A stretch of 64,000 nucleotides of DNA, from contig NZ_JAQOSP010000063.1 of the NCBI RefSeq assembly GCF_030068475.1, forward strand, positions 62,001 through 126,000. The letters run 5' to 3'. The notes below the pieces were generated by a model. That model was not told the DNA's origin and searched no databases. It saw only the letters and a program-made list of their open reading frames with translations. The DNA comes from Roseofilum acuticapitatum BLCC-M154. GTDB lineage: Bacteria; Cyanobacteriota; Cyanobacteriia; Cyanobacteriales; Desertifilaceae. Of this stretch, positions 53,345 through 56,800 are shown one piece after another. The translations under genes were made by a program, and so were the position numbers. The number at the start of each line of letters is the position of its first letter. Within the stretch, counting starts at the first letter, position 1.

Positions 53345-54580
53345 TTAAACCTTGAAATTGGCGATAATCCGACTCATGGCTTCTTCGACATTTTCCCGAC
53401 TGTTGAAGGCGGAGATGCGGAAGTAGCCTTCTCCCGCAGCGCCGAATCCCGATCCGGGAGTGCCAACGACGTAGCATAAGTTGAGTAATTTGTCAAAGAA
53501 ATCCCAACTGGACAATCCTTGGGGCGTTTTCACCCAAATATAGGGGGCATGAACCCCACCATAAACGGTTAATCCAGCCTCGGAGAGCTTTTGACGGATA
53601 ATTTGGGCATTTTCCAGGTAAAACTGGATTAAGTCTTTAATTTGGCTTTGTCCTTCTGGGGAATAAACCGCTTCTGCGCCACGCTGGACAATGTAGGAAA
53701 CGCCGTTAAATTTGGTAGATTGGCGACGATTCCAGAGTTGATGGAGGGTGACTTCTGCTCCATCGGCAGTTTTGGATTTGAGGCTCTTGGGAACGACGGT
53801 ATAGGCACATCGAGTGCCGGTAAATCCTGCATTTTTGGAGAAGGAACGAAACTCGATCGCACATTCCCTTGCGCCTTCAATTTCATAGATAGAATGGGGC
53901 AGTTCCGGGTCGGTAATAAAAGCTTCATAGGCTGCATCAAAGAGAATGACGGAACCATTGGCTTTAGCGTAGTCTACCCAAGCTTTGAGGTCAGCCTTCG
54001 ATGCAGTTGCCCCTGTGGGATTATTGGGGAAACAGAGATAAATGAGATCTACGGGTTGATCCGGTATTTTAGCGGTAAAGTTATTCTCGGCTGTAATCGG
54101 CAGATAGAATAAGCCTCCATATTCGCCTTTATCATTCACTGGCCCCGTATGGCCGGCCATGACATTAGTATCGACATACACGGGATAAACGGGATCGGTG
54201 ACGGCAATGGTGTTATCCTTACCAAAAATATCGAGAATATTGCCGGTGTCGCATTTCCCGCCATCAGAAACAAAAATTTCCGAGGCATCAATGTCGCATC
54301 CCCGTGCTTGGAAATCTTGGCTGGCAATCTTTTCCCGTAACCAACCATACCCCTGTTCTGGGCCATATCCCTTAAATGTAGCGCGATCGCCCATTTCTTC
54401 CACCGCCTTAATCATCGCCGTGCGGCAAGCTTCCGGTAGAGGTTCCGTCACATCCCCAATTCCGAGCTTAATAATGGGAGCATCCGGATTAGACTCGGCA
54501 AACACCTTCACCCGTCGGGCAATCTCCGGGAACAAATAGCCCGCTTTCAATTTGAGATAATTTTCGTTAATCGTGACCAT
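53345..54580 (-). CDS. dapL: LL-diaminopimelate aminotransferase
   Basis: PLP enzyme that makes LL-diaminopimelate straight from tetrahydrodipicolinate (lysine and peptidoglycan precursor), the usual route in cyanobacteria and plants. 411 residues with the start [48 protein letters not shown] (substrate Asn) and the PLP-binding Lys in [16 protein letters not shown]. The first ten codons and the leader are duplicated at 55385-55472, where they form a false start in front of xisH. TATGAT near 54630 may be its -10 element. Confidence 0.96.
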
Positions 54581-54638
54581 TGCGGCTCTTCTTAAGACTC
54601 TTTCTATCAGCTTAGGCGTAAACCGGTATCATAGGAAG
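54551..54638. repeat. 88-bp direct repeat, dapL-proximal copy
   Basis: This copy spans the first ten codons of dapL and 58 bp upstream. It matches the copy at 55385-55472 at 86 of 88 positions with no gaps. The differences are at 54588 and 54594, both in the leader. The copies are 834 bp apart and enclose xisI-xisH. Confidence 0.95.
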
Positions 54639-54643
54639 ACCAT

Positions 54644-54964
54644 TTATCCAGCCAGAACCAGGGGTTGTTCTGGCAAGAAAGCCAGGACAATTTGCTCAGA
54701 AGGCACACCTAGATCGAGCAAATCTTGGGTAATACCCTGTTCTAGCCCATCATATTCGACATAAATACGCTCATTTTCCAGGGTAATGTAGATCAAGTTA
54801 CCCCGCACTCTACAGCCCTGACTCCAGCCCGTTTGCATCAGGGCATAGCGGTCTTGAGTTTCATCAAACACTGTATCTAGGCGAATTTGCCCGTGAGAAG
54901 GGGTTAAGCGCCCATACTGACTAATTACCTGCTTGACTTTATCTCTCAGAGTCGCGGTATCCAT
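54644..54964 (-). CDS. xisI: XisI-like protein
   Basis: 106 residues. Recognisable XisI features: the start MDTATLRDKVKQVISQYG, VFDETQDRYALMQTGWSQ, RVRGNLIYITLENERIYVEYDG (quoted in part) and the LLDLGVPSEQIVLAFLPEQ C-terminal region. XisI was named for control of excision of the Nostoc fdxN element and normally occurs with XisH; homologues are common in cyanobacteria without that element, where their function is unknown. The start overlaps xisH by 19 bp. The stop is 5 bp from the dapL-side 88-bp repeat. Confidence 0.93.
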   Translation of the reverse strand: MDTATLRDKVKQVISQYGRLTPSHGQIRLDTVFDETQDRYALMQTGWSQGCRVRGNLIYITLENERIYVEYDGLEQGITQDLLDLGVPSEQIVLAFLPEQPLVLAG

Positions 54965-55371
54965 TGTTTCACCTCTACAGTTTCTACATCCACAACCAAT
55001 AGATTGAGCGGCAGGTCTCGGATAACCAATTGGCCAATCGGCTCTTGGAATAGCTCATTGTACACCTGGGTACTCACCGCTAGATAGAGCTGTCTCTCTG
55101 GATCAACCTGTGCTAAAAGTAGTCGATACAGCGTATATTGGCCCATAGCTTGTTCAAGTTCAGCAATGGGGGATTTGCCTCGTAGTTCCTTAATCTCGAT
55201 GGCAATGCGGTACTTATCACGCTCGGCTCCGATAAACTGTCCGGTTATTCCTAAGTCTACAAACAAAAATCGCTCCCCATAGGAGATCACATAGGGATCA
55301 TCGGTAATTATCCACCCCTCTTTTTGTAGAGCAGCTTTAACCTGAGCGTGAATGGCATCTCTAGAGGGCAT
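54946..55371 (-). CDS. xisH: XisH-like protein, restriction-endonuclease-like fold
   Basis: 141 residues of the XisH family: DAIHAQVKAALQKEGWIITDDPY, a DLGITGQFIGAERD segment and IAIEIKEL. The Asp followed by Glu-x-Lys is the PD-(D/E)xK nuclease layout, so it could cleave or bind nucleic acid; catalysis is not shown. It pairs with xisI (19-bp overlap). The ATG lies inside a 17-codon chimeric frame made from the first ten dapL codons. The 13 bp between the repeat and ATG hold no good ribosome site, so translation probably depends on the overlapping frame. Confidence 0.93.
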   Translation of the reverse strand: MPSRDAIHAQVKAALQKEGWIITDDPYVISYGERFLFVDLGITGQFIGAERDKYRIAIEIKELRGKSPIAELEQAMGQYTLYRLLLAQVDPERQLYLAVSTQVYNELFQEPIGQLVIRDLPLNLLVVDVETVEVKQWIPRL

Positions 55372-55414
55372 TACCTGAAATAACTTTGAGATAATTTTCG
55401 TTAATCGTGACCAT
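55361..55414 (-). CDS. Chimeric 17-codon leader frame overlapping xisH
   Basis: Begins with the duplicated dapL ATG and reads [17 protein letters not shown] before TAG at 55361-55363. The first ten codons equal dapL, and the last seven come from inserted DNA. It overlaps the xisH start by 11 bp in another frame. The dapL leader supplies its start signals, so ribosomes finishing here could restart at xisH. Frame and stop are read from sequence; translation is an inference. Confidence 0.55.
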   Translation of the reverse strand: MVTINENYLKVISGNAL

Positions 55415-55472
55415 TGCGGCTTTTCTTGAGACTCTTTCTATCAGCTTAGGCGTAAACCGGTATCATAGGAAG
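55385..55472. repeat. 88-bp direct repeat, xisH-proximal copy
   Basis: The second copy of the dapL 5' region (partner at 54551-54638, 86/88 identical). It begins exactly at the end of dapL codon 10 and ends 58 bp before the start codon equivalent. Confidence 0.95.
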
Positions 55473-55510: not shown

Positions 55511-56026
55511 ATGAATTATCTAGTTGCCGTATTGCGCGATCGCATTCAAGCCGAAGGAGTCTACTGTGCCTTAGAAAAAGGAGGCTTACCCACAAACCAA
55601 GTGAACATCTTAGGCAAAGGTTACAAAAGTGCCGATGAGTTTGGCCTAATCAACCCTAACCAAGCTGCTCAAAAACAAGCCCAACTGATGGCGACTTGGT
55701 TAGTCCCCTTTGGTTTTTTTGGTGGCGTTACCTTTAGTGTTATTTCTGGCCTCAATACTTTTGCCTGGGCTGGCGAAATCGGCAATCATATTGTGGGCGG
55801 ACTTTTAGGTGCTGCTTCCGGTGGCTTAGGAGCCTTATTTGTGGGCGGTGGTGTAGGTTTAATTAGTGGTAGTGGCGATGCACTGCCCTATCGCAACCGC
55901 TTACAAGAAGGCAAGTATTTAATTGTGGTACAAGGTTCTAGTAGTCTGATTGAACAAGCGACGATTATTATTCGTCCCTTTGAACCAGAAAGTTTACAAG
56001 GCTATACTGCGCCTAATCCTTCCTAA
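55511..56026 (+). CDS. Glycine-rich membrane protein, function unknown
   Basis: 171 residues. An N-terminal alpha/beta module (NYLVAVLRDRIQAEGVYCALE) resembles the general-stress-protein 17M/DUF1269 type; then two hydrophobic, Gly-rich segments (LVPFGFFGGVTFSVISGL and GGLLGAASGGLGALFVGGG) probably form a membrane hairpin; a further small strand-rich end follows. It starts 38 bp from the xisH-side repeat and reads away from it. The GNAT gene follows with only 3 bp between stop and start, so the two form an operon. Confidence 0.75.
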   Translation: MNYLVAVLRDRIQAEGVYCALEKGGLPTNQVNILGKGYKSADEFGLINPNQAAQKQAQLMATWLVPFGFFGGVTFSVISGLNTFAWAGEIGNHIVGGLLGAASGGLGALFVGGGVGLISGSGDALPYRNRLQEGKYLIVVQGSSSLIEQATIIIRPFEPESLQGYTAPNPS

Positions 56027-56705: not shown

Positions 56706-56734
56706 AGATTAGCACTCCGAGAGGGACTTCTGCT

Positions 56735-56758
56735 CCCCTTCTCCTGCGGGAGAAGGGG
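56735..56758. repeat. Short CCCCTTCTCC palindrome
   Basis: CCCCTTCTCC-TGCG-GGAGAAGGGG is a perfect 10-bp hairpin with a 4-nt loop, located 43 bp before the 3' end of the AraC-type gene on the minus strand. It may stop that transcript. Confidence 0.7.
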
Positions 56759-56800
56759 CTGGGGGATGAGGGGCAGCCATTGCATAATTCATTATAAATC

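Follow-up and report, generated by a model that had tools for sequence, protein, structure and literature searches.

In the Roseofilum genome analysed here, a bare xisH-xisI gene pair most probably inserted between a dapL-like gene and a divergent gene for a 171-aa protein, duplicating 88 bp of its target; the short chimeric peptide frame found at the junction would be incidental to this insertion. Four observations carry this conclusion: the repeats that bracket the pair, an empty site in a congener, the same pattern at other xisHI loci, and the disappearance of the peptide from a congener whose xisH is intact. That insertion and duplication were a single event is what we infer from them, and any promoter activity of the copied DNA is likewise put forward conditionally.

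The xisHI cassette between dapL and the 171-aa gene

In the window, the whole 64,000-nucleotide stretch of DNA that was analysed, two direct repeats of 88 bp each, 98% identical (54551-54638 and 55385-55472), bracket xisHI. The locus comprises the following features.

53345-54580, minus strand: dapL-like aminotransferase gene, 411 aa, an intact open reading frame (Pfam PF00155)
54551-54638, minus strand: leader copy 1, the first 10 codons of dapL and a 58-bp leader; native, serves dapL, single-copy counterpart in G004
54628-54633, minus strand: TATGAT of leader copy 1, a candidate -10 element; conserved in six of six genus genomes, absent outside the genus
54639-55384, minus strand: inserted unit of 746 bp between the leader copies, extending scarcely beyond the xisH and xisI reading frames; empty site in G004
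54644-54964, minus strand: xisI, 106 aa (Pfam PF08869; PDB 2nwv/3d7q)
54946-55371, minus strand: xisH, 141 aa (Pfam PF08814; PDB 2okf/2inb), with conserved D39 and E59-x-K61 and a PD-(D/E)XK-like fold
55361-55414, minus strand: chimeric 17-codon frame, ten dapL codons followed by seven insert codons; not conserved in congeners
55385-55472, minus strand: leader copy 2, read as the target duplication; it precedes both xisH and the divergent 171-aa gene
55462-55467, minus strand: TATGAT of leader copy 2, a candidate -10 element for xisHI; not called by the sigma-70 consensus scan
55511-56026, plus strand: 171-aa gene, without a Pfam family, divergent from dapL in the empty site

The name dapL, that of a lysine-synthesis gene, is taken from the sequence-only reading, and its Pfam support is the PF00155 match. 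xisH and xisI lie in tandem, PF08814 and PF08869 being matched across the whole proteins, and the annotated xisH start is correct, since the Pfam match begins at residue 1. The xisI stop codon lies 5 bp from leader copy 1. Flanking repeats of at least 50 bp and at least 85% identity were found at only 7 of 991 random 740-bp placements in the genus, which sets the 88-bp repeat far above chance. A transposase-borne insertion sequence was rejected: the unit consists of xisH and xisI only, and the duplications, here and elsewhere, are 75-185 bp long and of unequal lengths. Elsewhere in the window, positions 56719-56772 hold one copy of a dispersed 'ccccttctcc...gggagaaggggctgggggatgagg' repeat, present at many loci of the genome.

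We compared this genome (G000) with the congeners G001-G005, all of these relatives being draft genomes. G004, the most diverged of them (79%), has a single leader copy and no xisHI: its matches to dapL (to query position 1295) and to the 171-aa gene (from query position 2041) share 87 bp on a single contig, which makes this the empty site. The cassette of G000 is also present in G003 and G005, at the same position. Within each of these three genomes (the window, L067 and L069), the two leader copies have species-specific bases in common, which points to gene conversion; because the copies change in concert, their ages cannot be read from their identity. G001 and G002 show a different layout, with one leader copy at dapL and one at the 171-aa gene, the two genes lying apart and xisHI being absent. 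In both, dapL sits beside ilvC, and the 171-aa gene sits beside a glycosyltransferase gene found only in these two genomes. Their leader copies (L063/L064 in G001, L065/L066 in G002) resemble a rearrangement with a duplicated breakpoint, and would most simply be read as the result of a rearrangement after insertion.

Flanking duplications at other xisHI loci

The same signature was found at other loci. At L078, in the same genome, 75 bp of the 3' end of a cheB-like gene lie on either side of xisHI, and G003 provides the empty counterpart, with those 75 bp present once. At L131, in G005, a 185-bp repeat of the radA 3' end begins exactly at the xisI stop. The length of the duplication thus varies between loci (88 bp at dapL, 75 bp at the cheB-like gene, 185 bp at radA), and nothing promoter-like was captured in the cheB-like or radA duplications. 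For many sister pairs at different loci, the alignment starts roughly 50 to 0 bp before the xisH ATG and ends roughly 0 to 25 bp past the xisI stop (in one example, 92% over 795 bp), so that such pairs often have little in common beyond the genes.

In the genus, flanking repeats occur at 4 of 57 solitary cassettes, compared with 7 of 991 placements (p=0.002); these four include L131, for which a third local radA copy was allowed (3/57, p=0.014 without it), and L154, a possible array remnant with a repeat that includes the xisI tail. Across many phyla, direct repeats flank 9 of 80 xisH loci and 3 of 306 controls (p=6e-5). A few of the repeats were called on BLAST thresholds, and controls placed next to one another are not fully independent. 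Most xisHI copies today have no flanking duplication, and the pattern is therefore one of a minority and of an enrichment. It is not exclusive to xisHI either: these genomes have further local gene pairs that lie within long repeats.

Several candidates were set aside. The repeats flanking L073 and L124 are dispersed genome repeats, and those of the L072-type clusters belong to tandem xisHI arrays; at L154 and L134 the repeats include the xisI tail, which makes an array remnant equally likely. The repeat at L070 was left uncounted because other DNA lies between it and xisHI.

Some of these loci have features of their own. At L070 (G000 contig C41, 573-867 and 2144-2438), a 295-bp nucleotidyltransferase (MNT) segment, 98% identical, stands on either side of an xisHI pair. 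L072 (G000 contig C141, 4600-9800) holds four xisHI pairs arrayed in tandem, their GGAGG ribosome sites being strong, and related arrays are present in G001, G002, G003 and G005. The cassette at L141 appears, by eye, to have an 8-bp inverted repeat at its ends. This genome encodes 22 near-full-length XisH copies, and the xisHI families have 11-28 matches per genome in the genus. L131 itself (G005 contig C96, 3070-6151) is a nested island in which three radA 3'-end copies and two copies of a vapB segment (98%) lie between xisHI, a VapBC-like pair and a BrnTA-like pair. Toxin-antitoxin-like pairs other than xisHI may also insert with long duplications.

Probable origin of the repeats and possible role of the copied leader

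In the scenario that we favour, a bare xisHI pair of about 0.75 kb would have entered the short intergenic region from which dapL and the 171-aa gene diverge, copying 88 bp of the target as it did so. Since this region serves two divergent genes, a duplication of this kind would leave each of the flanking host genes with its full upstream region. Either of two routes would give the structure: two offset nicks that are filled in, or the joining of incoming DNA through homology at one end and illegitimately at the other, an equally simple route. In its full form, this second route would have the incoming DNA come from a relative in which xisHI already lay beside the leader, so that the second copy is the donor's. 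It would account for variable lengths without a dedicated enzyme, and at L131 the radA tail copy is 88.6% identical to native radA, less similar than the radA genes of other species (92-94%). However, it requires that xisHI already occupied the same site in the donor, and the dapL copies bear host-specific bases, although gene conversion could cause these. We regard this origin as possible but rather doubtful.

Another reading holds that the leader was duplicated, or the region rearranged, first, and that an unrelated recombination later placed xisHI between the copies. G001 and G002, with two leader copies, different neighbours and no xisHI, are what such a history would produce, but the most diverged congener is single-copy, and a lucky prior duplication would not account for the recurrence of the filled and empty pattern at cheB. 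These data make the duplication-first order unlikely.

The sequence-only reading had assigned a function to the copied leader, proposing that it supplies both the promoter and the translation start of xisHI. The promoter half of this proposal stands as a possibility. The TATGAT block before dapL shows little or no variation across the six genus genomes and does not occur beyond the genus, where a search for dispersal of the dapL leader block found none, and it is retained in leader copy 2 of every cassette-bearing species. The copied dapL promoter could therefore possibly transcribe xisHI; equally, the conservation of TATGAT could be explained by the same block fronting the 171-aa gene. The sigma-70 consensus scan called no promoter on the leader strand. 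The broader suggestion, that the cassette takes expression signals from the gene beside which it lands, is not borne out: the other duplicated segments derive from radA or from a convergent cheB-like gene, in both cases from the 3' end. Since the copied DNA elsewhere is a gene 3' end, antisense to xisH in the cheB case, signal capture is not the common factor. Furthermore, 25 of 54 xisH genes have a co-directional upstream neighbour, versus 169 of 271 background genes, indicating that xisHI does not select sites where a neighbour's promoter could drive it.

The translational half fared less well. The chimeric frame exists as described, running from 55414 to 55361 on the minus strand through ten dapL and seven insert codons, and overlaps xisH by 11 nt in a different frame, its TAG ending at 55361 and xisH beginning at 55371. 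xisH indeed has no strong ribosome site, but the same is true of 61 of the 67 xisH genes of the genus that are not part of tandem arrays, AGGA, GGAG or GAGG being found upstream in just 6 of the 67. The frame itself varies: it has 17 codons in G000 and 10 codons in G003, where it ends in TAATG across the ATG of an xisH that is frameshifted, and it is absent in G005, whose leader copy 2 no longer has the segment carrying the dapL ATG while xisH remains intact. Between G005 and G000, dN/dS is near 0.1 for xisH (about 0.11) and for xisI; the G005 xisH is under purifying selection. Because such an intact relative should keep anything that xisH translation needs, coupling through the chimeric peptide is unsupported. 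A duplicated start codon must give rise to a short frame of one kind or another, whether or not it matches the xisH frame, and the 17-codon frame is probably a by-product of this copying that matters little; coupling is unnecessary for the explanation.

That the leader is a captured expression device, from whose 17-codon peptide ribosomes reinitiate at the overlapping xisH ATG, is thus very improbable: the peptide stop 11 nt beyond the xisH start suits termination-reinitiation, and the TAATG overlap in G003, the lack of a strong ribosome site and the retained TATGAT block all point the same way, but G005 keeps a selected xisH without the duplicated ATG, the neat overlap of G003 precedes a broken gene, solitary xisH genes generally do without a Shine-Dalgarno sequence, the DNA duplicated elsewhere comes from gene 3' ends, and in Lyngbya majuscula a transcript start has been mapped 33 bp before xisH, which there has a putative ribosome site as well as promoter boxes (PMC2674450).

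xisHI among mobile gene pairs

An alignment shows D39 and E59-x-K61 of XisH to be invariant, and the protein matches the XisH structures PDB 2okf and 2inb, with a PD-(D/E)XK-like nuclease fold. Beyond XisH structures and one uncharacterised archaeal protein, the nicking endonuclease N.BspD6I and the R2 retrotransposon protein are among the best matches to the XisH model, both weak (E 0.007-0.04). XisH has been described as a likely endonuclease and XisI as a directionality factor (PMC4853749). The xisHI pair might then be a minimal self-mobile unit of ~750 bp, in which XisH would nick or cut the target at offset positions and overhang fill-in would yield the 75-185 bp duplications; we attach little confidence to this idea.

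Nobusato et al. reportedly described, in 2000, insertion with long target duplication for restriction-modification genes of Helicobacter pylori. The structure reported here matches that type of insertion, with xisHI as the carrier. As in the Helicobacter case (PMC1643837, PMC3031569), a small transposase-free gene unit lies between long direct repeats whose length varies, and a sibling genome has the target in single copy, here G004 for dapL and G003 for the cheB-like gene. By contrast, the cargo is xisHI and not a methylase/nuclease pair, the host is a cyanobacterium, and both insertions are known from sequence. The insert has no methylase and is therefore not a restriction-modification unit, although XisH has a PD-(D/E)XK-like fold. 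We conclude that restriction-modification cargo is a feature of the first examples and not of the duplication structure.

The two protein families are those of xisH and xisI in the Anabaena fdxN element, as judged by Pfam and PDB matches, but there is no fdxN element here, and the one large serine recombinase of the genome (PF07508) is on another contig, unlinked to the window. Like selfish toxin-antitoxin and restriction-modification genes, xisHI is a patchily distributed two-gene unit, and at L131 it lies with VapBC- and BrnTA-like pairs in nested repeats. To our knowledge, no toxin or antitoxin activity has been assigned to XisHI, and a PADLOC search returned no match.

The xisHI families are abundant and scattered across phyla, and we know of no role for them outside the fdxN element. 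The filled and empty pairs with long duplications offer a concrete account of how xisHI spreads without a transposase while leaving neighbouring genes unbroken, and the long target duplications link xisHI, by its behaviour, to restriction-modification genes.
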